Part shown: piece after piece, positions 9,253 through 52,144 of the stretch
How positions within the stretch are numbered: the first letter of the stretch is position 1
Layout of the letters: the number at the start of each line of letters is the position of its first letter
Assembly: GCF_022230885.1 (NCBI RefSeq)
Contig: NZ_JAKGCT010000004.1
Location: 2,294,001-2,358,000, forward strand
Length of the DNA stretch: 64,000 bases
Reading direction: 5' to 3'
Source of the DNA: Paenalcaligenes niemegkensis
GTDB lineage: Bacteria > Pseudomonadota > Gammaproteobacteria > Burkholderiales > Burkholderiaceae_B
Program-made: the position numbers and the translations under genes
The notes under the pieces: generated by a model
What the model was told of the DNA's origin: nothing
Seen by the model: only the letters and a program-made list of their open reading frames with translations
Databases searched by the model: none

Positions 9253-9834
9253 AATTACCATTGCCAATAGTTAAAAGTAGATCGGGCGCAATTGACCTTG
9301 CGCGATGGTGTTGGAAGGCAGCCGCAAGCCGTCACCCCGCAGAGGTGAGGTGGCTTGATAGCAAGCTTTGAGGTGCGAAGTTTTGGGCGCTGGAGGTACG
9401 CAGCGCATAAAACGTAGAGGGGTGTGCCTCGCAGTGCGGGAGCACGGTAGAAAGCAGTACGTACTTTTTATAAGAGTATTCGGTACTGGAAGTATTGGCT
9501 TGAGCGTTGGAGAAATGACCCATTTATGGGTCGTAAACGCTTTTTGCAGGGATGGGGCCATTGAGTCATGGATGCCTTCACCTAATCGTTCGCCAATAAA
9601 TTTGCAGCAATAACGCCAGAAAGTGTGAATTCCAGTATGAAACCCGCAGCGGGTTGCGGTACGAATGTCTACGTTGTCTTCTATAAGACCTTCCTGTCTT
9701 GTATAAGACTATACCTGTGATTGCGATGTTTTTATAGGGGATCCCCGTAAAGCGTTCTACTGCCGGACATATACACCCACTTGATTTGTCATATGAGCGG
9801 TCTACACTAGTCTTTTGTCATTGCGTAGATAACT
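9253..9834. other. Long divergent intergenic region, glcB/amn
   Basis: 582 bases between the divergent malate synthase and AMP nucleosidase genes. It holds two tandem palindromes (9676-9709) and a short hairpin AACCCG-CAG-CGGGTT at 9641-9655. The minus-strand open stretch 9271-9561 has no recognisable protein pattern and I do not call it a gene. I compared the region with the glycine-aptamer core by eye and do not see it. A long glcB leader RNA remains possible. Confidence 0.5.
9676..9709. promoter_or_regulatory. Tandem palindromes GTCTT-N4-AAGAC, candidate operator
   Basis: Two 14-bp inverted repeats, GTCTTCTATAAGAC (9676-9689) and GTCTTGTATAAGAC (9696-9709), sit 20 bases apart centre to centre, close to two helical turns on one DNA face. 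They lie about 125 bases before the amn start and 424 before the glcB start. I have a recollection of TCTTATATAAGA-like sites upstream of methylcitrate or acetate-metabolism genes in proteobacteria but cannot verify it here. Confidence 0.55.
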
Positions 9835-22244: not shown

Positions 22245-23851
22245 TTACATGCGGAAGAGGCCGAAACGCGTCTCGGCTATGGGTGCGTTCAATGCGGCAG
22301 ACAAGGCCAGCGCCAATACGCGGCGTGAGTCGGTGGGCTCAATGATGCCGTCGTCCCAGAGCCTTGCCGTAGCATAAAAGGGATGTCCTTCGTTTTCGTA
22401 TTGCTGCCGAATGGGTGTTTTGAAGGCCTCTTCGTCTTCCTCAGACCAGGTTTCGCCTGCCGCTTCGAGATTGTCGCGTTTAAGGGTAGAGAGCACACTG
22501 GCGGCCTGTTCTCCGCCCATGACGGAAATACGGGCATTTGGCCACATGAACAAAAAGCGTGGTCCAAATGCGCGTCCGCACATGCCGTAATTACCCGCCC
22601 CAAATGAGCCGCCAATAATCAGGGTTATCTTGGGCACAGCTGCGGTAGACACGGCGGTTACCATTTTGGCGCCATGACGTGCGATGCCTTCGTTCTCGTA
22701 TTTGCGGCCTACCATGAAGCCGCTGATATTCTGCAGAAAAATCAGCGGAATCTTGCGCTGGCAGCAAAGTTCAATAAAGTGCGTGCCCTTTTGGGCCGCC
22801 TCAGAAAACAGAATACCGTTATTAGCGATAATGCCCACCGGCATACCATGCAGGTGGGCAAAGCCTGTTACCAGGGTCGTTCCAAAACGGGCTTTGAACT
22901 CTTCAAAATTTGAACCATCAACAATGCGGGCGATAATTTCACGCACATCGTAGGATTTGCGTGAATCGGCAGGAACGATACCGTTCAGCTCTTGGGGAGA
23001 ATAGATAGGCTCAATGGCATCGCGCAGCGGCCACGGCCAGATTTTTTCATGAGTTAACCTGCCTACCGCTTCGCGTGCCAATTGCAGCGCGTGGTCGTCG
23101 TTCTCGGCCAGGTGATCAGCGACGCCGGACAAGCGGGTGTGCACATCGCCGCCGCCCAGGTCTTCTGCACTGACGATTTCGCCAGTGGCCGCCTTGACCA
23201 AAGGGGGGCCGGCTAAAAATATGGTGCCCTGGTTACGCACGATGATGGATTCGTCGCTCATGGCTGGCACATAGGCGCCCCCGCCGTGCAGGAGCCCATT
23301 ACCACCGCGATCTGGGCAATAGCCAAGGCAGACATCTGTGCCTGATTATAAAAAATGCGGCCGAAGTGGTCCCGGTCTGCAAAGACTTCATCTTGATTCG
23401 GTAAGTTGGCACCGCCGGAATCCACCAGATAGACGCAGGGCAGGCGGTTTTGCTGCGCAATTTCCTGGGCGCGCAAGTGTTTTTTGACGGTTAAGGGGTA
23501 GTAGGTGCCCCCTTTAACCGTGGCGTCGTTGCAGATGACCATGCATTCGATACCGGCTATGCGTCCAATACCGGTGATGATTCCTGCCCCGGGGGCTTCG
23601 TTGCCGTAGATGTTGCAGGCCGCCAGGGGCGAGAGCTCGAGGAAGGGACTGCCGGTGTCAAGCAGGCGTTGCACGCGTTCGCGGGGCAGAAGTTTTCCGC
23701 GATCAGTATGGCGTTGCTTGGCAGATTCGCTGCCACCCTGGGCATAGCGTTTCAGATGATCTCGCAGGGCCGCGACCTGTTCTTGCATGGCGCTGGCATT
23801 TTCAGCGAAACCAGCTGAGCGGGTTTGAATCGTAGAGTGTATTTGAGACAT
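22245..23851 (-). pseudogene. liuB: Acyl-CoA carboxyltransferase (beta) subunit, methylcrotonyl-CoA type; one-base frameshift
   Basis: Transfers CO2 from carboxybiotin to the acyl-CoA. Two adjacent open frames (197 aa and 341 aa) are halves of one roughly 535 aa protein. The break is a five-C run at 23278-23282; one more base turns the terminal [11 protein letters not shown] into [16 protein letters not shown], the conserved glycine-rich carboxyltransferase motif. Upstream motifs include [18 protein letters not shown] and [19 protein letters not shown]; downstream [18 protein letters not shown]. It lies 16 bases before the biotin-carrying subunit, clearly co-transcribed. The methylcrotonyl type is inferred from context. 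Probably functional in the organism. Confidence 0.88.
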
Positions 23852-25140: not shown

Positions 25141-26991
25141 TTAGGCGTCAGAGCTTAGCCGACGAGCGGATAATCGCTTTGACACGTGATAGGGATAAAT
25201 GTTCTCCAGGCGACCTTGTGCAACACGCTCACGGCATTGATTCCACCACGCAGCATCAAGTAGATCAGCATGATGTTTCAGGAATGCTTTGCGTATTTGG
25301 GGGTTGCCCAATAAGAACCATTGAAACTCTTCGGGAAACACATCATTTTTAGCGACGGGATACCACGGCTCGCTTGCCATTTCCGCCTCTTCGTTGGGGG
25401 CGGGTGGAATACGGCGAAACGTCATTTCGGTCATGCGCTGTATTTCATCGTAATCGTAAAAAACCAGGCGGCCCAGCCGGGTGATGCCGAAGTTCTTATA
25501 GAGCATGTCACCAGGGAAAATATTGTTGGCGGCCAGTTCGCGGATCGCATCTCCGTATTGCCGGATGGCTGAGGCAACCGCCTTGTCGCCGGAGCGGCTT
25601 AAGTAAATATTCAAGGGCAGCATGCGGCGTTCGATATAAACATGGCGCAACACAATGGTGTGCTCGTTTTCCTCGATCAGGCTAGGAATTTCCCGGCGCA
25701 GCTCATTTAGCAGCGAGTCGGAAAACCGTTGTTTGGGCAAGGCGACCTGGGAATACTCCCAGGTGTCGGCCATTCGGCCAGCCCTATCGTGTTTTTTGAC
25801 CAGCAGGTAGCGGCTTTTGACGGTGGCGTGATCCATGCCATCTTTGCGTATGTGGTCACGAATCACCTTGAACACATAAGGATAGGAGGGCAAGGTGAAC
25901 ACACACATCACCATGCCTTCAATACCTGGGGAAAGTTCGAACAGATCACTGGAATGGCTTAAGTGGTACAGAAAGTCACGGTAAAACAGCGTTTTTCCCT
26001 GCTTTTGCAAGCCAATGGCGTTGTAGAACTCGGCTTTGGATTTACGGGGCAATAACGAGTTCAAAAAGCTGACGAAAGCCGAGGGAGTTTCCATATCGAC
26101 CAGAAAATAAGCCCGGGTAAAGCTGAATAAGGTACTGATGTCGTCACTGCTATCAAGAAGCGCATCAATTTCTACTTCGCCTGCTACGCTGTGTGTCAGT
26201 GCGATGGCAAAGGGATAAATGCTGCCATGGTTGATAAAGCGCCCCACAATATAGGCACCTTTATTCCTGAAGAACAGGGAATGCAAAACGTGAAACTGGC
26301 AGTCGGATCCAATGCGATGGCCGGGGTCATCGGATAAGCGCTTGCGCAAGGTAGTGATAATCCGTCGGGCCAGGCGGCGAACATCAGTGGGCAGGTCGGC
26401 AAAGGGCGCTGCGAGCCCGAAGTCGGCGATCATCTGCTGCAGCGCGGGCATCAAGCCATGTGTTGTGGGATAGTAGGTTCGATACGAGGGCCGGCTGCCA
26501 CCCAGGTAGTCGGTAGCAATGGCAGGTCGTACGAACAAAAAATCGTTGTTGAAATAGTTGCGGTGCAGGACTCGGCACGATACTGAATTAAAAAATGTTT
26601 CGGCACATTCTGGCTGCGGGTGTGTACGCAGCAATTCGATCACATCCTTTTTAACTTGATGCCAAAAGAGCCGTTGGTGATCGTCGAGTTCGTTCTGTCT
26701 GGTATCGTCGAAAGGGCTGGCGGCGATGCGGCTGCCTTTTAGTGCTGCAGCCAGCACCGCAGCGCATTCGCGTACACGAATATCGTAGTATTCGATGCGC
26801 TCCCGGGAAAGTTGTTGAATGCCATGCCAGTTACCCGACTCGAACAGTACTTTTGCTCGTTGTGCACTATAGCGAAACAAGGCGTAGTGACGATTAAAGC
26901 CGTCAATGATAGTTCGGGCAATGTCTTGTGCCGACGGCCCGCTCAGAGGCAGGGGCACAATGCTGGGAGAGTCGGACAAATGCAAAGGCAT
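25141..26991 (-). CDS. aceK: Isocitrate dehydrogenase kinase/phosphatase
   Basis: Bifunctional switch that phosphorylates and dephosphorylates isocitrate dehydrogenase, sending carbon to the TCA cycle or glyoxylate shunt. The 616 aa length is right for AceK. The kinase region shows [21 protein letters not shown] (near 346-366) with the ATP-site lysine in VFKVIRDH, and a catalytic loop [14 protein letters not shown] (near 489-502) leading into [12 protein letters not shown]. Unusually it is not beside aceA/aceB but between isovaleryl-CoA dehydrogenase (15 bases upstream) and thiolase (30 bases downstream), so it is probably co-transcribed with leucine-degradation genes. Confidence 0.95.
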
Positions 26992-27006
26992 GTCAGGATA
27001 TTTACC

Positions 27007-28184
27007 TTAAGCCGTTTCGTTGAACAATTCGCGTCCGATGAGCATACGTCGAATTTCGCTGGTTCCGGCACCAATTTCGTAAAGTTTGGCATCACGCCAC
27101 AGACGTCCTGTACTGTAATCGTTAATGTAGCCGTTGCCCCCAGAATCTGGATGGCTTCACCGGCCATCCAGGTGGCTTTTTCGGCGCTGTACAAAATGGC
27201 CGCTGCGCAGTCTTTACGCACACTGCGCTGGTGGTTGCCTGAGTGTTTATCCAGCGTTTTTGCAACGCTATAACAGAGCGCCCGGCTTGCCTGGTGCGTG
27301 GTGTACAAATCAGCTATTTTCGCTTGAATTAACTGGAATTCGCCGATGGCCTGGCCGAACTGCTTGCGGTCGTGGACATAAGGGATCACAACGTCCATTA
27401 CCGCTTGCATGATGCCTAGAGGCCCGCCTGCGAGTACCGCCCGCTCGTAATCCAGGCCGCTCATTAGCACGCGTACGCCGCCGTTGAGTTTGCCCAGAAT
27501 GTTTGCTTCGGGGACCTTGCAGTCTTCAAATACCAGCTCACCGGTGTGGCTACCTCGCATGCCTAGCTTGTCGAGCTTTTGCGCTACTGAAAAACCGGCA
27601 AAGCCTTTTTCAACGATAAACGCGGTGATGCCATGCTGTTTTGCTTCAGGCTCGGTTTTGGCATACACAATCAGGGTGTCGGCATCGGGGCCGTTAGTGA
27701 TCCACATCTTGTGGCCGTTAAGTACATAGTGATCACCCTGTTTTTCGGCGCGCAGGCGCATGCTGACGACATCGGAGCCGGCCCCGGTTTCGCTCATGGC
27801 CAGGGCACCGATTGCGGTTCCTGAGATCAGATCAGGCAGATACCTGGCCTTTTGCTCGGCGGTGCCATTTCTGAACAGCTGATTCACGCATAAATTAGAG
27901 TGCGCTCCATATGACAGCCCTATTGAAGCACTCGCACGTGAAATTTCCTCCATGGCAATCATGTGCGCCAAATAGCCCATGTTGCTGCCGCCATATTCTT
28001 CGCTAACCGTCAAGCCCAATACGCCTAACTTACCCAGTTTGGGCCAAAGCCCCATCGGGAATTGATCACTTCTATCCACATCATGGGCTAAGGGAGCAAT
28101 CTCTTTTTCGGAAAATTGGCGCACGGTGTCGCGCAGCATATCGAGTTCTTCGTCGAGGTCGAAATTCAGGCCGGGCAGATGCAT
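27007..28184 (-). pseudogene. liuA: Isovaleryl-CoA dehydrogenase; one-base frameshift near the C-terminus
   Basis: FAD enzyme oxidising isovaleryl-CoA to 3-methylcrotonyl-CoA, step three of leucine catabolism. Acyl-CoA dehydrogenase motifs include [16 protein letters not shown] (about 130-145) and [16 protein letters not shown] (near 161-176). The helix-G sequence [15 protein letters not shown] carries the glutamate position typical of isovaleryl-CoA dehydrogenases. The frame goes wrong after AIQILGA; one base added to the five-C run at 27137-27141 restores [19 protein letters not shown], the standard C-terminus, stopping at 27007 for 392 aa. It is the first gene of the leftward operon; the promoter lies in the 126-base gap facing the MBL hydrolase. 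Confidence 0.9.
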
Positions 28185-33711: not shown

Positions 33712-34692
33712 CTACATCCATGGAAACAGCTGTCGCCATTGAGCATAGTCGGCAAAGGCCTCGGGCAACAAGAAACGCGGACTATAGCCAAACTCGTTTT
33801 TTAAGCGATCGATAGCAAATGGCGGGCGAGCCGTTGGCGCGGGGATCCCCACATTTGCTTTGTTTTCCTGGTCTACTTGCTCGTACCTAAAGTTTGGAAA
33901 CTGTCTGTGCAGTGCCTCACACCAGTCTGTGGCTGCCCAGCTTTGGCCAGTGGCAACTTGATATGTGCTGTGTTGACAGTGGTCAGCAGCAAGTAGCAAG
34001 GTAACTGCTTGGGCCACATCAGTGCCGTATACCCAGTCTGTGGGCAATTGCTTAGTAAAGGCGGCTTGATGGCCTTGTTCTGCCAGACGCCACAGCGTGT
34101 AAGGAATACTGAGCGTGTCGCGTACGCCTGTGTCGTGTTCCCACCGGCCAAAAGTGACTCCCAGCCGCAGCACAACCACATCCAGGTTTCGTGTGCGGCG
34201 ATAGCGCAAGGCGCAACGCTCGGCAGCGTATTTGCTGATTGCATACAGGCTTTCGGGGACCGGGATATCAACATCCTCGTGCAACTGCCCCGTTGTTTTG
34301 ACTGTGCTGCCGAAAATGGCGCCACTGCTTAAACACACGACGCGCTGTATATCGCAACTGATAGCAGCTTCCAGAACAGCGAGGGTACCCAAGAGATTCA
34401 CGTCGAGGATGGTGTGGGCTTTGCTACGCTCGGTGTCAAGAGCCGCCGTAATCGCCGCGCCATGGACTACCTGCGTTACGCCATGCGTTCGCATACTTTG
34501 TATGAGCTGCTGACTGTCTCGTATATCACCCAGTTCTATAGAAAGCATGGCCGGGTATGAGGCAAATGCTGCGGTTATCGAAGGGTGAGGTTCTTCCAAG
34601 CCATAGAGCACCACATGTTGCCCACGACGCAGTAAATCTTCGGCAATGTTCAGGCCACAGAAGCCCCCACCGCCCGTAATTAGCACAGCCAT
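33712..34692 (-). CDS. NAD(P)-dependent epimerase/dehydratase (extended SDR)
   Basis: 326 aa extended short-chain dehydrogenase. The nucleotide-binding loop TGGGGFCGLNIAEDL is at 6-20, the catalytic serine in CLSSGAIFGS (near 121-130), and the YxxxK pair in YAISKYAAER (near 154-163). It follows the hydantoin-racemase-like gene by 15 bases and closes the TRAP-1 operon, so it probably acts on the imported compound or its product. The substrate is unknown; the family includes nucleotide-sugar epimerases and small-molecule dehydrogenases. Confidence 0.85.
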   Translation of the reverse strand: MAVLITGGGGFCGLNIAEDLLRRGQHVVLYGLEEPHPSITAAFASYPAMLSIELGDIRDSQQLIQSMRTHGVTQVVHGAAITAALDTERSKAHTILDVNLLGTLAVLEAAISCDIQRVVCLSSGAIFGSTVKTTGQLHEDVDIPVPESLYAISKYAAERCALRYRRTRNLDVVVLRLGVTFGRWEHDTGVRDTLSIPYTLWRLAEQGHQAAFTKQLPTDWVYGTDVAQAVTLLLAADHCQHSTYQVATGQSWAATDWCEALHRQFPNFRYEQVDQENKANVGIPAPTARPPFAIDRLKNEFGYSPRFLLPEAFADYAQWRQLFPWM

Positions 34693-34707: not shown

Positions 34708-35457
34708 TTAAAGAGGTTGACGGCCAATCAGGGCCATCAGCGCAGGTGATAAGCCTGCAACGGGTTTATCCGGAGGTGGGGCGTAACTGCCGGCCTGAGA
34801 ACTGCGGGTGTTAATACCGACTATTGCCTCTGCCTGTCGCACAGCGCAACTCACCCCATCCACGAGCGGCACCGGAATACGGTCTGCAACGGTCCGGGCC
34901 AAGCCAGCCAACGGTGCGCCAGCAATAATGATGACGTCTGCTCCATCCTCTTCTACAGCCTGTTTGCACAGTGTAATCAGCTGTTCGCCATGGTCGTCCT
35001 GAATGGTAGCGATATTACGTAAGGAATTCTCCAGACAGCGGATGCTGGCTAAGCGGCTGCTCATACCATAGCGTGCTACGGTTTCTTCATACCAGGTACG
35101 GATACGACGCGAAATGGCTACGATGGAAATCTTGCCGCCCAGCATAGAGGCCGTCATCAGGGCAGACTCGGTCATACCCATTACCGGAATAGGCAGGATT
35201 TCACGAGCCGCCAAGAGCCCGGGATCTCCAAAGGCTGCCACAATGGCTGCGTCGTAGTCTGAGTAATGCTCGGCCAGGGCGGTGAGTGTTGCATAACCGC
35301 CCACGGCCGCCTCGGCGCGAGTTTCTATATAGGCTACGCCGAAAGGTGCAGTCACGACATTAATTTCGACCTGTGGAGACGCGACTCGACGCGCTTCTTT
35401 TTCGATGAGCTCCGACACGCTGGTCGAAATATTTGGATTAACAATTAATAAACGCAT
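34708..35457 (-). CDS. Hydantoin racemase-like protein lacking the usual catalytic cysteines
   Basis: Asp/Glu/hydantoin racemase superfamily, 249 aa, starting MRLLIVNPNISTSVSELI. The two active-site positions are recognisable but without cysteine: AAFGDPGLLAARE (near 74-86) on the N-terminal side and IIAGAPLAGLARTVAD (near 177-192), where IILGCAGM-type sequence is expected. The remaining cysteines (in RCLEN, LCKQ and VSCAVR) are not at these sites. It is encoded directly after TRAP system 1, upstream of the epimerase, in a cluster with a dihydropyrimidinase, so a hydantoin or carbamoyl-amino-acid role fits; however a two-cysteine racemase mechanism is not possible as written. The product may be a different isomerase or lyase. 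Confidence 0.8.
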   Translation of the reverse strand: MRLLIVNPNISTSVSELIEKEARRVASPQVEINVVTAPFGVAYIETRAEAAVGGYATLTALAEHYSDYDAAIVAAFGDPGLLAAREILPIPVMGMTESALMTASMLGGKISIVAISRRIRTWYEETVARYGMSSRLASIRCLENSLRNIATIQDDHGEQLITLCKQAVEEDGADVIIIAGAPLAGLARTVADRIPVPLVDGVSCAVRQAEAIVGINTRSSQAGSYAPPPDKPVAGLSPALMALIGRQPL

Positions 35458-35516: not shown

Positions 35517-36796
35517 TTAGAACCCCATTGCACGCGGTAGTGCCGTTACCAAATCTGGGAAGGCAATACATAGGCCCAGAACAGCAAATTGCACTAGCAC
35601 AAAGGGAAATGACTCACGGATTAATGGGCCCAAAGGTACCTTGCTGATTCCGCTGACGACAAAATATAAGACACCTACCGGTGGAGTCATCATGCCGATG
35701 ATCAGGTTAAATACGAACAAGAAGCCAAAATAGAGAGGATCAATGCCATAGGTCAGGGCCAATGGGGCGAACAGAGGCACCAACATAATGTAGGCAGCGT
35801 TTGATTCAAGGAACATGCCCAGTACGATCAGCAAGGCCATGACCAGCAGCAAGAATGCTAGCGGGTTTTGGGTCAGGCCCTGAATGAAACCCGATAGTTG
35901 TGCGGGCACCATTTCAATGGTGAAAATAAACGTTACTGCTGCGGCAAAGGCAATAAGGGCCCCCACCATTGCCGACGTGACGGCTGCACGGTATAAACAC
36001 CCGGGCAGGTCCTTGAGTTTTAATGTCCTGGTAATAAAGAAACCAATAATCGCCGAGTAAACGACGGCAATTGCAGCGCCCTCAGTTGCAGTAAAAGCAC
36101 CAAATACAATGCCGCCTACTACGATGATCGGCATTAACAAGATCACTAACGCACGTCGGCCCTGCGTCAGCATGTTTCGGAAGTTAAAGGCAGCGCCCGT
36201 AAAAGCATAGCCTCTGCGTTTAGAAATAATTCCGGCTAACACCATAAAGCAGCCGACCAAAAGGAAGCCAGGAACGACGCCGGCCATAAACAAGCCGCCG
36301 ACGGAAACGGATGAGCCGGCCATCAGGGCGTAGACAATCATGGCGTTGCTAGGAGGGAAAATGGCGCCCAGGTTAGCCGCTGAACAAATCACCGCTCCCG
36401 AGTAATCATCAGGGTAGTACTTACGCAGAGACGGCACCAATGTGCTTCCCAGCGCACTTGCACTGGCCACAGCCGCACCGGACACGGAGGAAAAAATGGT
36501 GCCTGAAATAATGGTGACCTGTGCCAGCCCCCGTGAACTCGCCCCACCATGCTGTTTGCGAAGGCGATCAGGCGTTCCATGATGTGAGCCCGCACCATCA
36601 ATTCACCCGCAAGAATAAATAGCGGAATCGCCATCAGGGGAAAACTGTTGACTGCGTGCATCATGCGCTGCGGCATAACCACCAATTCAAAGTCGAGCAT
36701 GTAGACTGCCGCCACCGAAGCCATGCCCAATGCAAAGGCTAGGGGCATACCGGTAAGCGCCAGGCCAAGGAACATTAATATTAAGTAAACGGTCAT
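35517..36796 (-). pseudogene. dctM: TRAP transporter large permease (system 1); one-base frameshift
   Basis: DctM-type membrane subunit moving organic acids with sodium. Two overlapping frames (36796-36389 and 36485-35517) form one 426 aa protein of about 12 membrane helices when one base is added to the five-C run at 36538-36542. The junction then reads MVGRVHGGLAQVTIISG and continues TIFSSVSGAAVASASALG, a family hallmark. The second half includes GMMTPPVGVLYFVVSG. The start overlaps the DctQ stop by four bases (ATGA), showing translational coupling. Confidence 0.9.
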
Positions 36797-37314
36797 AGGT
36801 TTTCACCTAACCAGGTTTTTGAACCGCAGCGCAGCAATAGCAGCAAGTGCAAGAAGCTATGCCCGGCACAGATTAACAGCGGTATATAGAACACGGCCGA
36901 ACTGATTGGCAGGGTTGGCATGAGTTCTGGCCAGCGCTCGATCACCGCAGTCCACGCGCCCAAGAACACCAGCGCCATCAGTAGCAGGCTGACTACGCAG
37001 GTAAGGCGAAAAATAACTTCGCGGGCCGCACTGGGAAGCAGCGAGACAAACACGTCGATGCCCACGTGTACACCGTGTCGCACACCGTGCGGAATGGCGA
37101 TAAAAATAGACCAGACAAAAAGTAGTCGGGAAAGCTCGTCCGCCGAATCAATGGACGTGCCGAAGAAGTAGCGCAAGATCACCTGGAGGGCGACTAGAAT
37201 TGTCATCCCTCCGATCATTGCCACAATGATCCAGTAGGTGAATTGATCCAGGCGTTTCAAAAACTGTTTCAGCGCTGCAAATCCAGCCGGCGTGGCAGGG
37301 TTGAGTTCGCTCAT
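36793..37314 (-). CDS. dctQ: TRAP transporter small permease (system 1)
   Basis: DctQ-type subunit, 173 aa, four membrane helices. The family signature is visible as VILRYFFGTSIDSADELSR (near 46-64). It overlaps DctP's stop by four bases and DctM's start by four bases. It couples the binding protein to the large permease. Confidence 0.9.
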   Translation of the reverse strand: MSELNPATPAGFAALKQFLKRLDQFTYWIIVAMIGGMTILVALQVILRYFFGTSIDSADELSRLLFVWSIFIAIPHGVRHGVHVGIDVFVSLLPSAAREVIFRLTCVVSLLLMALVFLGAWTAVIERWPELMPTLPISSAVFYIPLLICAGHSFLHLLLLLRCGSKTWLGENL

Positions 37315-38312
37315 TGTGCCGTTGCCTCTGAGACCACTAAATTCACAAAGTCAGGATCCACCCGTTTTTTGACTTGTTCAACTACGCCAGCCGTAGCGGT
37401 ACGCAGTTCTTCTCGTGTCTCAGGCGATATGGAGGTGAAAGTCATGCCCGCCTTGATGAGTTTTTCACGGTAGCCATTGTCTTCCTCTTCAGCTGTATCC
37501 CGTTGCCATTGCATGGCCTCATTCATTGCCGTTTTAACAATCTCCTGGTGTTCTGGCGATAATCTTTCGTAGCGGCGCTTATTGGCCATTACTACCAATA
37601 GATCGTAGAAGTGTGAACTGTCGGAAAGATGGCCCTGCACTTCATTAAAGCGGCGGCTGTCGATGGTGCTGTATGGGTTTTCCTGCGCGTCCAGCACCTT
37701 TTGTTGCAAGGCAGAGTAGAGTTCAGATACATCCATTGAGACGGGGTTGGAGCCGAGGGCACGGAACGTCTGTAAATGCACTTCATTGGGTTGTAAACGT
37801 ACACGCAAGCCCTGGAAGTCAGCGGTGTTTTCCAAGGGGCGCAAGCTGTTGGTAACATGTCTGAAGCCAATTTCACCGTAGCTTAAGACTTCAAAGCCTT
37901 GTTTCGCCATTTTGTCATGCAGGGCTGTGCCCACTTTACCTTCCACAACGTTAAAGGCCTGTTCGCGATTATCAAACAAGAATGGGAGGCTCAGCGCTTC
38001 ATACTCCGGGACGAGCCGGGTCAGGTAGGCAGAGGAGATCAAGGTTGCAAATAGCGTTCCGGAGCGAACCTGATCAACGTTTTCGGTAGCACCTCCCAAT
38101 TGCATGGCTGGAAATAGGTCAACTTGAATTTCTCCATTAGAGCGCTCCTCAACCAGCTTCTTAAAAACCTCCATCGAGCGAGATACAGCATCTTCCACAG
38201 GATGGTTGCCAGCGACTCGCAAACGCTCTACTGCCTGAGCAGAAGCACCGAAAGCAAACATCGCTACGCCAAGCGCCGAAGCCGTTAATAACTTATATAG
38301 CTTTTTAGACAT
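37311..38312 (-). CDS. dctP: TRAP transporter substrate-binding protein (system 1)
   Basis: Periplasmic DctP protein of 333 aa. A Sec signal peptide (MSKKLYKLLTASALGVAMF...ASAQA) is cleaved near residue 27, followed by RLRVAGNHPVEDAVSRSME. The helix region LRVRLQPNEVHLQTFRALG (near 158-176) includes the arginine that usually salt-bridges the ligand carboxylate, followed by SELYSALQQKVLDAQENP. The ligand is unknown; downstream hydantoin/epimerase genes suggest an organic acid derived from amide or pyrimidine metabolism. It has its own leader region and starts a five-gene operon. Confidence 0.92.
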   Translation of the reverse strand: MSKKLYKLLTASALGVAMFAFGASAQAVERLRVAGNHPVEDAVSRSMEVFKKLVEERSNGEIQVDLFPAMQLGGATENVDQVRSGTLFATLISSAYLTRLVPEYEALSLPFLFDNREQAFNVVEGKVGTALHDKMAKQGFEVLSYGEIGFRHVTNSLRPLENTADFQGLRVRLQPNEVHLQTFRALGSNPVSMDVSELYSALQQKVLDAQENPYSTIDSRRFNEVQGHLSDSSHFYDLLVVMANKRRYERLSPEHQEIVKTAMNEAMQWQRDTAEEEDNGYREKLIKAGMTFTSISPETREELRTATAGVVEQVKKRVDPDFVNLVVSEATAQ

Positions 38313-38536: not shown

Positions 38537-39953
38537 TCAACGCAAGCGGCCCTCCAGGGTGGGTTTATCACAGGCTATAAACTGACCGGCATGCTCGTCT
38601 CCAACAAAAGCAAAGTCTTTGCTCACCATCTTGCCTCGAGAAAAGGTCATGACGGGCCAACCTTTTACTTCGATGCCTTCATATGGGGTGTAATCTACGT
38701 TGTGATGCAATTGACTATTGGTGATCGTGACTTTTCTCTCTACATCCCACAACACAATATCAGCGTCGCCCCCTACAACAATCGACCCTTTACGTGGATA
38801 CATGCCGTACAGCTTCGCGGGGTTTGTTGCAGTGAGAGCCACAAACTGATTCACACTAAGCCGACCTTCAGCTACGCCGCCGGAAAAGAGCAGGGGCAGG
38901 CGTGTTTCCAGCCCCGGGATTCCATTGGGAATGTATTGAAAAGGCTGTTCAGTTCCACCGAGCTTTTTGCCGCAGGGATCCTCAAAGTTGAAGGGTGCAT
39001 GATCAGAAGAAAAAATAGTAAAAAGATTTTTTCAAGGCCATTCCATACCGATGCCTGGTTTTTTTATCACGTGGCGGCGGGCTGCATACAAACTTTGCAC
39101 CATGAAAATGGGGCTCTTCCAAATGGTCCTCTGTCAGGAATAAATACTGAGGACATGTCTCAGCATAGATTTTTAGTCCTTTGCCCTGGGCCCAATGAAT
39201 TTGTTCAATAGCCTCTTTCCCGGACACATGCACGATCAGTATGGGCACATCGACCAATTCGGAAAACGTGATGGCACGATGGGTGGCTTCGCGTTCAACT
39301 GCGCTTGGACGCGATACGGCATGGTACTGCGGTGCGGTTAAACCGGCATCGTTAAGCTTTTCAGTTAACCATGTAATGCAGTCAGCGCTCTCCGCGTGAA
39401 TCATCACCAGGGCGCCCTCGGCCCTGGCAACGTCAAGTACCCGTAAGACCTCGAGATCACTGATTTTAAGATCGTCATAGGTCATGTAGATCTTGAAAGA
39501 GGTGTATCCCTGCCGAATAAGCTGTGGCAACTCGTCTGTTAAGACGGTGTCGGTGGCGTCGGAAACAATCAGGTGGAAAGCATAGTCAATTACGGCTTTA
39601 TCGCCAGCACGGTGATGATAATCGTCAACCGCAGCTTTTAGCGACTGACCTTTTTCCTGTGCGGCGAAGGGAATAATGGTAGTCGTACCGCCACATGCAG
39701 CAGAAATCGTCCCGCTTCTGAAATCATCGGCCATTTTTACGCCTTCGGGCATGGGCTGATCCAGATGGCAATGTGCGTCGACCCCACCAGGAAGTACCAA
39801 ATAACCAGTAGCATCCACGATATCGCGAGCGCCTGACAAGCCCGTAGCCAAAGCTGCGATCTTTCCGTCTTTTATACCGATATCGCAGACAAAGCGGTCT
39901 GAGGCTGTTGCGACATCGGCATTTTTTATAATTAGATCGAAGGACGAACTCAT
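38537..39953 (-). pseudogene. hydA: Dihydropyrimidinase / D-hydantoinase; two one-base frameshifts
   Basis: Zinc amidohydrolase opening dihydropyrimidine or hydantoin rings. The N-terminal frame (from the ATG at 39953, preceded by GAGGAG) has the metal motif GGVDAHCHLDQPM (near 60-72), ligand residues in SFKIYMTYDDL (metal-bridging lysine) and the later histidines. Two bases must be added to recover the rest: one in the seven-T run 39059-39065 and one in the six-T run 39027-39032. Then RDKKNQASVWNGLEKNLF and SSDHAPFNFEDPCG join to NQFVALTATNPAKLYGMYP, a 472 aa protein of normal length; SDHAP holds the fourth metal aspartate. ATTGT-NN-ACAAT sites near its promoter and that of the GntR gene suggest shared control. 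Confidence 0.9.
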
Positions 39954-40053
39954 GTATTGCTCCTCAAAACTTTGTAGTGTTTTTCTAAGACTTAGCGCAA
40001 CACTACCGCTTGCCTGAAATTTAATCAAGCTTTTGAGGACAAACTATAAAGCT

Positions 40054-40065: not shown

Positions 40066-40743
40066 TCAGCTAAAGATTTCCTCGAAATCAGGTAGCTCGT
40101 CGTCAGAGCTGGAGAGATCCAGGGCGTACTCGATACTTAGCAAATGATCGTGCATGATTTTTTGGGCGGTATCGGCATCGCTCCGCTTGAAACAGGCCAC
40201 CAGATCGGCGTGCTCATGGTCGGAACATGCAGAAACGTTTGGTTTATCGTAGAGCGTAATAATTAAGCACGTGAACGATGTCAGTTCGCGCATAATCCGC
40301 AGCAACATGCGTGAGGCGACCATCTCGGCAATATGCATATGGAATTCGCCAGACAGACGAATGATGGCCCGGCTGTCGCGTTGTGCACGAGCCTGTTTCT
40401 CGAGAGCTACATGTTGCTGTAGCTGCTTAAGCTGTGCTGGCGTAATGTTTTTGGCCAGCGTAGCCGCCATGCCAGGCTCAAGTAGACGGCGGGTATAGAA
40501 CAGTTCTTGGGCTTCTTCAACCGTGGGGCTGGCAATACACGCTCCCTTGTTGGGAATCAATGTGACCAGCTGCTCGTGCGCGAGCCGCCCCAATACCTGG
40601 CGAATACGGGTACGGCTGGCACCCGTGACTTCGACCAGCCGCTCTTCGACCAAGCGGGCACCGGGCAGCAATCGGCGCTCTGTAATGGCCAATAAGATGC
40701 GGCTATAAATTTCTTCTACGCTTAATACCTGATTTTTCGCCAT
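40066..40743 (-). CDS. GntR family transcriptional regulator (FCD subfamily)
   Basis: Repressor-type regulator, about 225 aa from the ATG at 40743 (MAKNQVLSVEEIYS); a GTG start at 40773 is possible but gives an unlikely extension. The N-terminal winged helix (about 8-70) has LVEERLVEVTGASRTRIRQVL, and the C-terminal all-helical FCD ligand domain (about 85-215) has metal-binding-type histidines (EFHMHIAEM, DHEHADLV). It is divergent from the M20 gene and downstream of hydA's promoter; identical palindromes flank both, so it most likely controls hydA and the M20 gene. The effector is unknown. Confidence 0.88.
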   Translation of the reverse strand: MAKNQVLSVEEIYSRILLAITERRLLPGARLVEERLVEVTGASRTRIRQVLGRLAHEQLVTLIPNKGACIASPTVEEAQELFYTRRLLEPGMAATLAKNITPAQLKQLQQHVALEKQARAQRDSRAIIRLSGEFHMHIAEMVASRMLLRIMRELTSFTCLIITLYDKPNVSACSDHEHADLVACFKRSDADTAQKIMHDHLLSIEYALDLSSSDDELPDFEEIFS

Positions 40744-40838
40744 AGTTATTGCCCGGACGTGTGTTGACGTCACTCACTCTTGTTATCAATCAATTAAATA
40801 GATAATTGTCGTATACTATATCTACGATTTTAGATTAA

Positions 40839-43167: not shown

Positions 43168-43905
43168 ATGAGCCGTACTTTACTGGGAATGATCACCCCT
43201 TCCTCAAACACAGTACTGGAGCCCTATACCAGTGCCATTCTGGCTTCTTTATTTCCACGGGTTAGTGCACACTTTCAGCGTTTTACTGTTCGAGAGATCT
43301 CGCTATCGACCAGCGCGTTAGCGCAATTCGAAACAGAGCCGCTGTTAGAGGCGGCTGAGTTGCTGAGCGATGCCAGAATGGATGCAATCGCCTGGAGTGG
43401 AACGGCTGCAAGTTGGCTAGGGTTTCAGGTGGATGAACGGTTGTGTAAAGCCATTATGGAACGCACCGCTATTCCCGCTACGACTAGTGTCTTGGCTCTT
43501 AATGAAATTTTAGAGCGCACAAATGTGGCACGGCTGGGACTGGTGACGCCGTACTTAAGTGATGTGCAATCGGCAATTATCAATAATTACAACGCGGCTG
43601 GTCATGAAGTTGTTGCCGAACAGCATTTAGGTGACAAAGGAAATTTTTCGTTTTCTGAATACGATGAAAATACGCTGCGCAAGATGATTCGTAGGGTTGC
43701 GGAATCAAAGCCTGAGGCCATCACCATTTTGTGCACCAACTTACGTGGAGCCGAAATTGTGGAGGAGCTTGAGGCCGAAACAGGTATCCCGATTTACGAC
43801 TCAGTCAGTGTCACCGTGTGGAAATCGTTGTTGTTGGCAGGACAGCGTCCCGACCAAATCAAGGGGTGGGGCAAACTATTTAATGATCCAAAACTTGGCA
43901 TGTAA
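43168..43905 (+). CDS. Maleate isomerase / arylmalonate decarboxylase-like protein
   Basis: Asp/Glu racemase superfamily, maleate cis-trans isomerase/AMDase branch, 245 aa, with the branch signature GMITPSSNTVLEPYT at 7-21. The second catalytic cysteine is present (ILCTNLRGAEIVEELE, near residue 191-206), but the first site reads AWSGTAASWLGF (near 76-87) with Ser/Gly/Thr rather than cysteine. That one-cysteine arrangement is the one known for arylmalonate decarboxylase, whereas maleate isomerase uses two. The gene has a good Shine-Dalgarno (AAAGGAGA) and precedes TRAP system 2, so it probably acts on the imported dicarboxylate-like compound. Decarboxylase versus isomerase is not settled. Confidence 0.8.
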   Translation: MSRTLLGMITPSSNTVLEPYTSAILASLFPRVSAHFQRFTVREISLSTSALAQFETEPLLEAAELLSDARMDAIAWSGTAASWLGFQVDERLCKAIMERTAIPATTSVLALNEILERTNVARLGLVTPYLSDVQSAIINNYNAAGHEVVAEQHLGDKGNFSFSEYDENTLRKMIRRVAESKPEAITILCTNLRGAEIVEELEAETGIPIYDSVSVTVWKSLLLAGQRPDQIKGWGKLFNDPKLGM

Positions 43906-43970: not shown

Positions 43971-45023
43971 ATGCAATCCCTGAAACTTAAGCAGTGGGCA
44001 ACAAGCGTCGCCATTGGCGCCAGTTTAATGATTAGCGCCACCGCGATAGCGCAAACTCCGTTACGGGTCGTCGGCAATTTTTCGGGAAATAAAATTCACG
44101 TTGAGGAGATTGAGCGTCCGTTCTTTGAGGCGTTAGGACCAAAAGTTGGTGTGCCCGTGGTCTATAACACCATGGATGCCATTGGCGTAAATGCTGCCGA
44201 CGCACTGCGCATGATCCGCTCAGGTTCGTTTGACATCATGTCAGTACAGATTGGCATGGCCGCACGGGACGACCCTTTCTTTGAGGGCATAGATCTGGCA
44301 GGCGTAGCCTCAGATCTTGGTGCGCAGCGCAAAGCAATTAACGCCGTCAAAGATAGCATTGATGAGCGTCTTCAAACCCGCTTTAACGCCAAGTTAATGA
44401 CCTTATGGCCCTTTGGCGAGCAAGTGCTTTTTTGTACGGGAGACATCAACTCGGTCGACGACTTAAAAGGCAAAAAAGTTCGGGTATTCACTTCTTCAAT
44501 GTCACGTCTGGTAGAGGGCTTGGGTGCTACCCCAGTCACGCTGCAATTCAGTGAGGTTTATCTTGCATTACAGCGCGGTGTGGCCGACTGCGGAGTAACG
44601 GCCCCCAGCGCAGGAAACAGCGGAAAATGGCCAGAGGTTACCGACGTGTTTTTACCTTTGCCCTTGTCTTATTCAGTGCAAGGCCATTTCATGAACCTGG
44701 ATCGCTGGAACGCGATGTCATCTGAGCAGCAAAGTACACTGCAGGCCGAGTTCGCCGCTATGGATGACCGCATGTGGGATCTGGCCGATACCTACAATAA
44801 AGACGCTGCACGCTGCAACACAGGTCAGGATGATTGTAAACACCACACCAAGTACACCATGCGCGAAGTGCCTATAGACGCTAAAAACCGCGAGCGTGTC
44901 GTTGAACTGACCAATGCCGCTGTTCTGCCTTCTTGGGGAGCCAGTTGCACTCGAGGCTTTAAAGAGTGCATTCCGGTCTGGAACGAAACAGTGGGCAACG
45001 CCACTGGCTTTGAAATTAAATAA
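43971..45023 (+). CDS. dctP: TRAP transporter substrate-binding protein (system 2)
   Basis: Periplasmic DctP protein, 350 aa, with signal peptide ending ...SATAIAQ (about residue 28) and mature start TPLRVVGNFSGNKIHVEEIE. The ligand-helix region is GKKVRVFTSSMSRLVEGLG (near 168-186), followed by TLQFSEVYLALQRGVADCGV. Four cysteines in the C-terminal part (CNTGQDDC, CTRGFKEC) look like two disulfides, which is not usual for DctP. It has an AGGAGG-type ribosome site and follows the isomerase-like gene by 65 bases. Confidence 0.92.
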   Translation: MQSLKLKQWATSVAIGASLMISATAIAQTPLRVVGNFSGNKIHVEEIERPFFEALGPKVGVPVVYNTMDAIGVNAADALRMIRSGSFDIMSVQIGMAARDDPFFEGIDLAGVASDLGAQRKAINAVKDSIDERLQTRFNAKLMTLWPFGEQVLFCTGDINSVDDLKGKKVRVFTSSMSRLVEGLGATPVTLQFSEVYLALQRGVADCGVTAPSAGNSGKWPEVTDVFLPLPLSYSVQGHFMNLDRWNAMSSEQQSTLQAEFAAMDDRMWDLADTYNKDAARCNTGQDDCKHHTKYTMREVPIDAKNRERVVELTNAAVLPSWGASCTRGFKECIPVWNETVGNATGFEIK

Positions 45024-45087
45024 TTCTAAATAAGCTTTTAGCCTGGATGTGTCTACACGCTTCCAGGCTAATTTCAGGAGACCTGCT

Positions 45088-45708
45088 ATGTCTGAGCAAG
45101 GACCCCGTGTGCCAAACATAATCATTCGGGCCGGTGCGCTCGTTACCGGTTACGTCACCTTTTTGCTTTCTGTCATGATTACGATCGAGGTTATTGGTCG
45201 AAAGTTTTTTAATTTTTCTTTTCAGGGTGTGGATGAAGTGGGGGGCTATGTTCTCGCCATTGGCGTGAGCTTTAGCCTGGCTTATGCGTTAATCATGCGT
45301 GCGCACACCCGCGTGGATGTGTTGGTTAACCTGTTGCCTAAAAGCGCACGGGCCTTGCTGAATCTTTTTGCGGCGCTTTTGATAGCTGCCCTGGCGTGTT
45401 TTTTATGCTGGCAAAGTATCGATACCCTAAGAGAAACCCTTGAGTTTGATAGCCACGCTTCGACCCCACTAGAGACGCCTCTTTGGATTCCACAAATTAT
45501 TTGGGCAGCTGGTTTTGTGTTGTTTTCCATTGTGGCCGTTTGGCAGGCGGTACGTGGATTGCAATTGCTGACGGTAGGGAATATAGCTCAGCTTAATAAG
45601 GAGCTGGGGCCTCGAACCACAGATGATGAGCTCAACGAAGCACTTGAAGAGATTCAAAACCAGCAGATCGAGCCTGGGCAAGAACTTAAGCTAGGGGCGC
45701 AATCATGA
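45088..45708 (+). CDS. dctQ: TRAP transporter small permease (system 2)
   Basis: DctQ-type subunit, 206 aa, four helices; signature EVIGRKFFNFSFQGVDEVGG. The ATG at 45088 is chosen since AGGAG stands 7 bases before it; the longer frame from 45049 is not family-like. A hydrophilic acidic tail (about 170-206) is longer than usual. It overlaps the next gene by four bases. Confidence 0.88.
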   Translation: MSEQGPRVPNIIIRAGALVTGYVTFLLSVMITIEVIGRKFFNFSFQGVDEVGGYVLAIGVSFSLAYALIMRAHTRVDVLVNLLPKSARALLNLFAALLIAALACFLCWQSIDTLRETLEFDSHASTPLETPLWIPQIIWAAGFVLFSIVAVWQAVRGLQLLTVGNIAQLNKELGPRTTDDELNEALEEIQNQQIEPGQELKLGAQS

Positions 45709-47008
45709 TAACGATTCTAGGAATTGCAGGTGGCTTCGTTCTGCTACTGGCCCTTCTGGCAGTTGGCGTACACGTCGCCGTAGCCATTTTTTCTGTGGCC
45801 ACCACAGGCGTACTGCTGTATTTGAATACGTCACTGCTCTTTAATTTCGGAAATAACCTTTGGGCCACGCTAAACGATTTTTTACTGACGGCGATCCCCT
45901 TATTTATTTTACTTGGCGAGATTTTGCTACGCAGTGGGATCACAGAGCGAATGTACGGTGCATTGTCGGTTTGGTTACAGCGTTTGCCCGGCGGTTTGCT
46001 GCACACCAATATTGGTGCGTCCACGGTGTTTTCAGCCATGTCCGGTTCTTCAGTGGCTACCGCCGCGACGATTGGAACCGTTGCCCTGCCAGCGTTTAAA
46101 CAACGAGGGTATAACGAGCGTATAGCACTTGGGTCGCTTGCAGCCGGAGCGACCTTAGGCATATTGATTCCTCCAAGTATCAATATGATTATCTATGGAG
46201 CCATTACCAACACCTCAATCGGTAAGTTATTTATTGCGGGAATATTGCCAGGCTTGGCGCTTGCAGCGGCTTTTATGGCAACCATTTATATTTGCGCAAT
46301 CCTAAAACCAGACATCGTGGGTATTAAAGAAGCGCCTACGTCGTGGGCGGAAAAGCTGGCGGCTCTAAAAGACTTACTTCCACCCGCCTTCGTGTTTTTT
46401 ATTGTGATGGGCAGTATTTATAGCGGATGGGCCACCCCGACTGAAGCGGCAGCTTTAGGCGTGGTGGCATCGCTGGTTATTGCGGCCAGCCGTCGTAAGC
46501 TATCTTTCTCGATGCTGCATGAGTGTTTTTGTCGATGGCGCGCACGACCGCGATGCTGATGCTGATTATTATCGGCGCCTACTTCATGAATTATGTGGTC
46601 GGCATCTTGGGGATTCCTTCGGCCTTATCGCGTTGGGTTTCCGATTTGGGTCTTAGCCCATTGGGACTGATTCTATCGTTGGTGGTTTTCTATCTGGTAT
46701 TAGGCTGCTTTCTGGAAACCTTGTCGATGATGATTGCCACGGTACCAATTGTTGTTCCGCTTGTGATGCAGTTCGGTTTTGACCCTGTATGGTTCGGAAT
46801 TTTCCTGGTGTTGATGATGGAAATTTCGCTGATTACACCACCTGTGGGTATGAACCTGTTCGTGGTTCAGGGCGTACGAGGGCACGGCTCGGTAGTTGAC
46901 GTCATTATCGGTAGCTTGCCTTTCTTGCTGGTCATGCTGGCTTTTGTACTGGCTATTATTATTTGGCCTGCGTCGATAATGTGGTTACCGAATCTTATGA
47001 TGTCCTAA
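45705..47008 (+). pseudogene. dctM: TRAP transporter large permease (system 2); one-base frameshift
   Basis: DctM-type subunit; two overlapping frames make one 434 aa protein when one T is added to the five-T run at 46526-46530, giving SMLHECFLSMARTTAMLML. Family motifs before the break: MSGSSVATAATIGTVALPAF and GILIPPSINMIIYGAIT; after it: LGCFLETLSMMIATVPIVVP and ISLITPPVGMNLFVVQGV. It is translationally coupled to DctQ (ATGA). Confidence 0.9.
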
Positions 47009-50247: not shown

Positions 50248-51305
50248 TTAGAGCAGGGAGGTGTAATCGATAGGGAAGGTGTAGCCTTCTTCTTGTAAAA
50301 ACTGGATGTAGGTTTTAAATACGTCGGTAGCAGGAAAACCTTTTCCGTCCAGTTCTGCGGCGGCGGTAACCGGAATGTTACTAAGCTGTTCAGCCCAGCG
50401 TTGCTGTTCGGAAAGTGGTAAATCGTTAACTTTGATGCCTTGCGCTATAAGCTTGGCCTTCATATCGATATCGCGCTGCTTGCTAAGTTCGGCGACTCGC
50501 AGCGAGGCTTCCAGCGCGACTTCGTCAATAATCTCCAGTACGTCGGCTGGCAGCTTATTGCGCGTATCCAGATTCATGAAAGCTACCAATGTGCTCAATG
50601 AGCCCAGGCTAGTCGTGTTGAAGTACTTGCTGGGTTCCGACAGTTTGAAGGCATCCATACCAGACAGATAGAACAGGCTGCCTTCGACCAGGCCAGTTTG
50701 CAGGGCTTGATAATGTTCACCTATACCCAGAGTAACGGGAACGGCTTCAATAGGAATGAAGAGGGGGCGTTGGTGCCAGCCATGGCAATACGTTTCCCCT
50801 TAAGTGTGTCGATATCGTTCCAGTCGAAGGTGGAGGCCACGCCGTAGGCTTCGGAGACCATGGCACTGAGTACATAGCTGTTGTAGCGAGCCATGCTGTC
50901 TTGCAGAGCCGGCACCTCTTTTAGCATACGATTAGAGACTTTTTGCTGCAGCACAGGATCGGACGAGGTGAAGGGCAGGTAAGCGCTGTAGTTGAGCAAG
51001 GCGGCGCGTGATTGTTCAAAGCCTATAGGCACGAGGCCAATGTCCAGGGTGCCTTTTTGTACAGCCTCAATGGTTCCGTCTACTTTGGCTACGCTGCCAC
51101 CCCACGCCTTGATAAAGCGCACCTTGTGTTCGGTACGTTCGGCGACGCGTTCGCTGACCTCTTTGGCAAAGAACGTGTCATAGGTATTGACGTAGGTCAG
51201 GCCGGTGGTGTGGCCTCCACCCATGCGCAGGCTGAAGTTCTTGGCTTGGGTGGTAAATGAAAGGGTGACGAGTAGTGTGGCTGCTGCGAGCTTAAGTAGT
51301 TTCAT
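50248..51305 (-). pseudogene. dctP: TRAP transporter substrate-binding protein (system 3); one-base frameshift
   Basis: DctP protein. The first piece (from the ATG at 51305, with GGAGAGAG upstream) has a signal peptide MKLLKLAAATLLVTLSFTTQ and mature start KNFSLRMGGGHTTGLTYVN. The frame is lost after AMAGTNAP; one base added to the five-G run at 50763-50767 restores LFIPIEAVPVTLGIGEHY and QALQTGLVEGSLFYLSGMDA, the ligand-helix region, and joins the C-terminal piece for 352 aa in total. The ligand is unknown. Confidence 0.88.
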
Positions 51306-51337
51306 GGTTGTCTCTCTCCGCGGTGGAGTCATTTTTT

Positions 51338-52144
51338 CTATTTGGAGCACTCTAAAATAAAGCGCTCGTATGGCTTGGGACTGAGTAGGTGGGGGTAGTG
51401 CCCGCCATTTTCAAAGCTGACGTGCTGTGCCCCCGGGTAGCGTTGCCGAAGTTTTTTCTGGGCAACGGCCGGTATGAGCGGGTCGTCCGGGCAATCAATG
51501 ACCACGATACGATCATCAGTCAAAGAAAGCGGCGGGCAGGGCTCAGCGCGTGCCACCCCCAGTAACCGGGCATGCAGGTTTTTCGGGCTTTGGCGCTCGC
51601 TAAGCAGCTTGAGCAAGTAACCCTGCAATGGTTGGTGGGACAGTGGTATGAGGCGCTCACGCCATTCAGCATGAAGCGTCTCAGCATCAATTTTTTCGAG
51701 GGTTTCACGATCAAATAAAGGATTATCCGCTAAATCGCTGCCTTCGATAAAGCCATTGCCCAAAACCAGTTTGGCGACACGTTCCGGATAATGCAGCGCA
51801 AAGAACTGAATCCAGTAGGCGGCAAATGAGGAACCCACCACCACAGCACGCTCTAAATCCAGCGTATCCATAAGTTGAGCCAGCCCATGAGCCAGAGCAT
51901 GGGCATCAGCCAAGGCTGGATAGGTGATTGCAATAAGGCGACGCTGCGTTCCCAGGCTAAGCAGGGTCTTGACGAATACGGCGCTATCGCCTACGGAGCC
52001 TGGCAATAAAAGAACGGGTACTCCATCGCCACCTGTGTCCAGATAGTCCCACTCATGGCCATCGCACTGTGTGGCAGTCCATTGGTGGCGTTGTTCAAGC
52101 TGAGCCAGTTCGTCGTGCAAAACACTGTGACCCTTAGTTTGCAT
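51338..52144 (-). CDS. Alpha/beta hydrolase, maspardin-like
   Basis: Alpha/beta-hydrolase fold, 268 aa. The nucleophile elbow reads VVVGSSFAAYWIQFFAL (near 113-129), GSSFA instead of the usual GHSMG, as in maspardin-type members; the acid is in VIDCPDDPLIP and the histidine in FENGGHYPHLLSP. It overlaps the cupin gene upstream by 11 bases and precedes TRAP system 3, so all five genes are likely co-transcribed. Hydrolysis of an ester, or C-C bond cleavage in the imported compound's pathway, is inferred. Confidence 0.85.
   Translation of the reverse strand: MQTKGHSVLHDELAQLEQRHQWTATQCDGHEWDYLDTGGDGVPVLLLPGSVGDSAVFVKTLLSLGTQRRLIAITYPALADAHALAHGLAQLMDTLDLERAVVVGSSFAAYWIQFFALHYPERVAKLVLGNGFIEGSDLADNPLFDRETLEKIDAETLHAEWRERLIPLSHQPLQGYLLKLLSERQSPKNLHARLLGVARAEPCPPLSLTDDRIVVIDCPDDPLIPAVAQKKLRQRYPGAQHVSFENGGHYPHLLSPKPYERFILECSK

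Follow-up and report, generated by a model that had tools for sequence, protein, structure and literature searches.

Introduction

The nearest relatives of known structure for the gene product analyzed here are two allantoin racemases. That of Pseudomonas fluorescens (PfAllR; structures 5lfd and 5lg5) was reportedly shown by Cendron in 2016 to be active and to use Glu78, three residues after a lost cysteine. In that of Klebsiella pneumoniae (KpAllR; structures 3qvj and 3qvk), the catalytic pair is Cys79/Cys184 and the substrate contacts are N12, T118, and T119, according to the sections of PMC12661438 covered here. For the related NozR, the available part of PMC10156859 describes C75A, C179A, and double mutants that all fail. 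Near true arylmalonate decarboxylases (AMDases), the portion consulted of PMC4996985 places mandelate-racemase relatives and TTT, TRAP, and ABC transporters, with no mention there of hydantoinases as neighbors. No racemase-family protein lacking both cysteines was found in the open-licence literature searched, as far as those texts were in view, and the accessible parts of PMC5333837 (cyanide proteome) and PMC9304392 (nicotinate) held nothing bearing on the racemase-like gene described below. Here, we compare with these systems a hydantoin/allantoin-racemase-like gene carried by a 64,000-nucleotide stretch of DNA from Paenalcaligenes niemegkensis, hereafter the window.

Results

The racemase-like gene (Table 1) has an intact frame with an ATG start, 249 codons for amino acids, and no internal stop; directly 5′ of its ATG lies GAGGAAACA. 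Its product belongs to the PF01177 superfamily both by profile search (149 bits against a cut-off of 31, covering positions 1 to 211 of 211) and by the two-domain, pseudo-symmetric fold of its model. A phmmer search against solved structures gave 116 bits for 3qvk, 115 for 3qvj, and 114 for 5lfd, the nearest solved relatives being the allantoin racemases 3qvk/3qvj and 5lfd/5lg5 at 31 to 33% identity. The AF2 model (mean pLDDT, 92.5; pTM, 0.90) found 3qvk as its top match in a structure comparison (Z, 31.3; rmsd, 2.0; 241 aligned). A search of ten further genomes from the window's genus gave no match above 34% identity, and the gene is thus accessory there. Orthologues were found in Paraburkholderia xenovorans LB400 and Cupriavidus metallidurans CH34. 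Three distant matches (27 to 32% identity) occur in phage records, two annotated as hydantoin racemase and one unannotated.

Table 1. Positions in the window of the racemase-like gene, its two catalytic sites, and neighboring genes
Feature	Position	Strand	Basis
Hydantoin/allantoin-racemase-like protein (PF01177), A75 and G180 in the catalytic Cys columns	34708..35457	-	Profile, alignment, model
Site 1, codons 74-80 (AAFGDPG): A75 in the KpAllR Cys79 column, D78 three residues further	35218..35238	-	
Site 2, codons 179-187 (AGAPLAGLA): G180 in the KpAllR Cys184 column	34897..34923	-	
Dihydropyrimidinase/D-hydantoinase (NF009941-like), one frameshift near 39,009-39,025 at A and T runs	38537..40028	-	
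GntR/FCD regulator	40066..40773	-	Profile search
TRAP solute-binding protein DctP (a)	37311..38312	-	Profile search
TRAP small permease DctQ (a)	36793..37314	-	Fused permease ORF of locus L064 matches across
TRAP large permease DctM (a), frame broken once near 36,53x, where a GGGGG run lies	35517..36796	-	
NAD-dependent epimerase/dehydratase, separated by 15 bases from the racemase-like gene upstream of it	33712..34692	-	
Arylmalonate-decarboxylase/EutA-like protein (PF17645, PF01177), Gly/Cys in the AMDase G74/C188 columns	43168..43905	+	
Second TRAP system DctP, DctQ, DctM; DctM frameshifted near 46,52x at a TTTTT run	43971..47008	+	

A sequence-only reading of this DNA had described a well-kept fold in which both catalytic cysteines are replaced. 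The model and its match to 3qvk agree with the first point, and alignment to 3qvj bears out the second: the query has Ala75 opposite the cysteine of the chain's ACFGDPG at site 1 and Gly180 opposite that of LGCGGM at site 2, so that the cysteine of a two-thiol racemase is absent from each site. The same reading had named cysteines in RCLEN (C141) and VSCAVR (C204) as possible occupants of the catalytic positions; both fall outside the two columns. Its more general claim, that classical racemases need two cysteines, holds for the KpAllR pair and fails for 5lfd, which has Gly at site 1.

Conservation of the two replacements was followed in two sets of relatives. A scan of GTDB species genomes with two patterns gave at least 535 confirmed relatives (598 stretches), of which the best 80, at 57 to 72% identity, were retained. 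A75 and G180 were present in 81 of 81 sequences (the query and these best 80 of at least 535), a count that is partly selected since one of the two patterns, IVAAFGDP, includes A75. Across the same 81 sequences cysteine was variable elsewhere, occurring in 20 in the C141 column, 34 in the C204 column, and 44 in the C164 column; a displaced catalytic cysteine was rejected, as no column held an invariant one. The second set, found by whole-protein comparison, comprised 118 rows (115 of 116 fetched loci, the query, and two references), 114 of them distinct, since four were duplicates from overlapping fetched loci (three T/S rows, together with L197, which repeats part of L045). Writing the residues at sites 1 and 2 as a pair (A/G for Ala/Gly, C/C for Cys/Cys), the 118 rows divided into 71 C/C, 15 A/G, 10 C/G, 8 G/C, and 14 others, namely 6 T/S (three distinct places), 2 N/G, and six singles, one of which, a partial copy, is gapped at site 1. 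The A/G pair thus appeared in 14 loci and the query within a set found without the A75 pattern, with an overlap of at least one locus (L006/L141) between the two sets. Of 398 genomes in a phylum sample, at least 13, counting that of the window, encoded an A/G protein, a lower bound because at most six candidates per genome were scored. More distant family members also stand in tandem pairs in three genomes (L025/L031, L026/L032, and L015/L023), the member read in each being of the T/S type.

Beyond the two sites, 39 of 61 invariant columns in 46 aligned sequences fall within 79 of the 249 residues assigned to the active face, the stretches of which we picked from predicted strand ends. Majority residues that separate A/G from C/C proteins include Y43, R47, E49, G107, W122, Y123, P182, L183, and G185. 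Y43, G107, L183, G185, and in part R47 are common to the C/G group and E49 to the G/C group; W122, Y123, and P182 differ from the residues of the other three groups. The D78 column holds Asp in 15/15 A/G and 66/66 C/C rows and Glu in 8/8 G/C rows. Counted on the 3qvj alignment, one of the three KpAllR substrate contacts is kept: N12 corresponds to N9, and T118/T119 correspond to A114/I115. The counterpart of T118 (position 114) is still Thr in an alphaproteobacterial A/G sub-branch (rows L037-L045), and loss of Thr at this position is therefore not general.

Phylogenetic analysis, in quick builds with SH-aLRT support only, set the Gly-180 proteins apart. In a tree of 125 rows, built after 12 distant or duplicate rows had been dropped, 46 rows carried Gly at site 2 and together formed one side of a branch with a support of 90. 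When the site columns and four further rows were also removed, 40 Gly-site-2 rows split from 78 Cys-site-2 rows with a support of 100, and the C/G, A/G, and G/C groups had supports of 99, 81, and 99, respectively. A single origin of the A/G group is only moderately supported (81 without the site columns, 31 in the 125-row tree). Because long branches join the G/C group and the Gly-180 clade, how the two are placed relative to each other is unsure. These trees suggest that the second cysteine may have been lost, or never gained, once for the Gly-180 clade, and that the first-site residue differs between C/G and A/G proteins within it. The replacements at sites 1 and 2 are separable in the sequences compared, because Gly at site 2 is also found in the C/G sister group (rows L143, L046, L047, L049, L051, L054, L008, L012, L156, and L177).

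In the window, the minus-strand order is GntR regulator, hydantoinase, DctP, DctQ, DctM, racemase-like gene, and NAD-dependent epimerase, adjacent genes being no more than about 225 bases apart. The AMDase-like gene lies 7.7 kb from the racemase-like gene, in divergent orientation. Its product matches PF17645 at 68 bits, with Gly and Cys aligned to the AMDase pair, and reaches neither the AMDase nor the EutA cut-off of NCBIfam. A hydantoinase stands near a racemase-family gene, its own frame being split, and this setting is like that of a hyu cluster. Neither transport system is decisive for the substrate: DctP (a) matches numerous TRAP receptors (79 distinct chains at E ≤ 1e-15), and the second DctP is nearest, weakly, to 2pfz (E, 1e-13), which we take to be a pyroglutamate receptor. 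The DctQ of the second system was named by eye from position and sequence. The window's M20 protein, which fits the NCBIfam family TIGR01910 (DapE-ArgE), gained no support as a carbamoylase of the module, relatives being present in 0 of the 80 loci (best 80 of at least 535). The window contains three PF01177 proteins, i.e., a G/C type at 6085, the A/G type at 34708, and the Gly/Cys AMDase-like type at 43168. The first (6085-6804, minus strand) is related to allantoin racemases and clusters with PfAllR in the tree, and an ORF at 7090-9267, taken by eye for a malate synthase, lies about 285 bases from it.

The hydantoinase and both DctM genes, otherwise well kept, are each broken once, breaks that the sequence-only reading did not mention, and a fourth gene at 22245-23851, taken by eye for a carboxyltransferase, appears from its ORF arrangement to be split near 23,28x. 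All four breaks read, this one and the three in Table 1, lie in or beside runs of at least five identical bases, and for this reason they look like sequencing error, real slippage being the alternative. The racemase-like gene itself is free of frameshifts. Two other ORFs named by eye may be further cases: a short DctP-like ORF at 50721-51350 and an acyl-CoA-dehydrogenase-like ORF at 26943-28184 with an odd C terminus.

The hydantoinase recurs beside A/G genes in other genomes. Of 13 A/G places, the window included, 11 have an NF009941-type hydantoinase (E ≤ 1e-60) no more than 10 kb away, versus 3 of 76 others (Fisher p, 7e-10; 89 of 93 places compared, from non-independent lineages). By group, the latter count was 1/8 for C/G, 1/61 for C/C, and 0/6 for G/C, with 1/1 for a single I/G place. 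Among the best 80 of at least 535 loci, 49 have a hydantoinase within 2 kb and 55 have one within 5 kb. In the 59 of these 80 with full flanks (at least 8 kb on both sides), tblastn found a hydantoinase in 56, an AMDase-like gene in 54, and both in 53, along with a GntR relative in 50, a TRZ-type deaminase in 20, and an amidase in 16; many loci are from Halomonadaceae and Burkholderiales, so that these counts are non-independent. Codon-scored gene calls failed to recover the racemase-like gene in 13 of the 80 loci, and neighbor counts are for this reason taken from tblastn, except those of the purine-breakdown genes below. By tblastn, the hydantoinase was absent from 3 of the 59 and the AMDase-like gene from 5, and neither was found in the DNA read for L064 and L074, which are tree rows near the query. 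Gly and Cys were present in all 57 AMDase-like proteins aligned (the window's and 56 called in the 80 loci), and all 57 had Tyr in the column of the AMDase TAY Tyr. Relatives of the NAD-dependent epimerase/dehydratase occurred in 10 of the best 80 of at least 535 loci. The transporters near the A/G gene vary, with TRAP, NMT1-type ABC, MFS, and TTT systems represented. The transport/dihydropyrimidinase cluster pointed out in the sequence-only reading is thus present in the window, and its hydantoinase link recurs; likewise, the view that the gene is not decaying is supported by a variant common to a clade (81/81, partly selected).

Plasmid records from Klebsiella, Paraburkholderia, Diaphorobacter, Methylobacterium, and Salipiger place both partners with the A/G gene. 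The trio is also found on a conjugative plasmid of Arthrobacter, whose hydantoinase has only 30% identity to the probe. In eight stretches (seven from plasmids and L202), the A/G pair was present in 8/8, the hydantoinase in 8/8, and the AMDase-like gene in 6/8; in the stretches read for L202 and L205, an amidase adjoins the Cys-less gene, and an AMDase-like gene was not detected. On plasmid pZXY21 of Arthrobacter sp. ZXY-2 (L203), typed as conjugative, transposases and an integrase lie within about 9 kb of the module. A conjugative plasmid in an actinobacterium, with transposases and an integrase near the module, suggests horizontal transfer of the module.

Other neighbors were less frequent. 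Among the best 80 of at least 535 loci, a ureidoglycolate lyase was present in 10 and a polysaccharide-deacetylase-like protein, taken for PuuE, in 13; these purine-breakdown genes occur near the module mainly in Halomonadaceae and are treated as a local feature. In 7 of the same 80 loci, a DUF3830 protein is encoded no further than 2 kb from the Cys-less gene, and in Paraburkholderia largidicola the two are adjacent (examples, L066:10696-11199 and L207:9862-10281). An identity as OHCU decarboxylase was rejected for this recurring neighbor family, which Pfam assigns to DUF3830; no convincing solved relative was found, and DUF3830 was not named in the open-licence literature searched.

Discussion

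We consider it somewhat probable that the racemase-like gene encodes a functional enzyme of a hydantoinase-initiated catabolic module, from a Cys-less branch beside the hydantoin/allantoin racemases that works without two-thiol proton transfer. Because proton transfer by the two-thiol route needs both cysteines, racemization by that route is unavailable, and we infer a changed chemistry from the residues at the two sites. The link of the clade to the hydantoinase suggests a so far undescribed step in the degradation of small nitrogen-containing rings. More tentatively, the A/G clade could represent a new thiol-free enzyme for an undescribed lyase, isomerase, or hydrolase step in a horizontally moved pathway of hydantoinase, Cys-less protein, and AMDase-like decarboxylase that would degrade a natural cyclic ureide or imide.

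In the proposed mechanism, a transporter would bring in a small ring compound (a cyclic ureide, imide, or dihydropyrimidine), the hydantoinase would then open the ring, and the A/G protein would act on the substrate or product of the hydantoinase, often together with the Gly/Cys AMDase-like protein. D78, in the column of the PfAllR Glu, is the likeliest remaining acid-base group and would supply that function, while Y43, R47, E49, W122, Y123, and P182, with the empty G180 site, may shape a new pocket serving an isomerase, lyase, or hydrolase step. D78 is invariant in A/G proteins, yet this does not point to a new role, since Asp equally occupies the column in 66/66 C/C rows. With moderate confidence, we favor a chemistry that acts from one side on the substrate or product of the hydantoinase, rather than racemization, because D78 is a candidate base and the opposite face offers none.

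A rather unlikely alternative is that the protein still racemizes or epimerizes its substrate, D78 acting as a single base on an unusually acidic C-H, as E78 of PfAllR is said to do. The fold is nearest to 3qvk and 5lfd, and 5lfd itself has Gly at site 1 with Glu in the D78 column; 5lfd, however, retains the second cysteine, whereas Gly180 of the query has no side chain for reprotonation from the opposite face. Likewise, the hydantoinase is the commonest partner, and racemase and hydantoinase act in series elsewhere (PMC3546935, in the part covered), but the Thr-Thr substrate contacts of KpAllR are gone in the query and the clade is separate from both racemase groups in the tree.

That the protein is a pseudoenzyme with a binding or regulatory role toward the hydantoinase or a pathway intermediate appears quite unlikely. 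Loss of both catalytic groups with no invariant cysteine elsewhere would fit this role, as would the recurring hydantoinase link. The invariant columns, however, gather on the active face, which points to a small ligand, and the racemase-like and hydantoinase genes are up to 8 kb apart in some genomes. A decaying or misread racemase gene is most improbable, for although the neighboring hydantoinase and DctM frames are broken, the four breaks read sit at homopolymer runs, the gene is intact, and the Ala/Gly pair in 80/80 relatives (best 80 of at least 535, partly selected), or 81/81 with the query, rules out decay or sequencing error at the two sites.

The loss of both cysteines bears on annotation. 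Where plasmid records annotate A/G proteins, they are named "aspartate/glutamate racemase family protein" or "Asp/Glu/hydantoin racemase," names that imply a chemistry impossible by the known two-thiol route. The recurring partners offer a route to the substrate: since a similar small gene set recurs with different transporters across lineages, the hydantoinase, the AMDase-like protein, and the A/G protein are assayable as a unit.

In comparison with known systems, the protein is a PF01177 superfamily member outside the two-thiol racemases, the PfAllR type, and the AMDases, as the defining residues of each were compared and found to differ. It shares with KpAllR the fold (31% identity), the N12 column, and the FGDPG loop, whereas Cys79, Cys184, and T118/T119 of KpAllR are replaced by Ala75, Gly180, and A114/I115. 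With PfAllR it shares the fold (Z, 30.5 for 5lg5 and 30.3 for 5lfd), a site 1 without cysteine, and an acid residue in the D78 column. The PfAllR type combines a site-2 Cys with Glu three residues after site 1, whereas the query has Gly180 and D78, and PfAllR belongs to the separate G/C group along with the window's 6085-6804 paralogue. AMDase and EutA have the same superfamily fold (3dg9; Z, 18.9), and AMDase resembles the query in its incomplete cysteine pair, having one of the two (G74/C188). AMDase keeps Cys188, however, whereas the query has neither cysteine; membership in AMDase or EutA was rejected, for AMDase on the lack of a site-2 Cys and on a score of 22.7 bits against the NCBIfam arylmal_decarb cut-off of 225, and the AMDase pair is carried by the AMDase-like neighbor instead. 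The C/G sister group (ACFGDPG ... LGGAxLAGLA) shares Gly at site 2, Y43, and the same side of the tree with the query, but keeps the site-1 Cys, has M122/L123 where the query has W122/Y123, and has a hydantoinase nearby in one of the eight places compared (of 10 rows).
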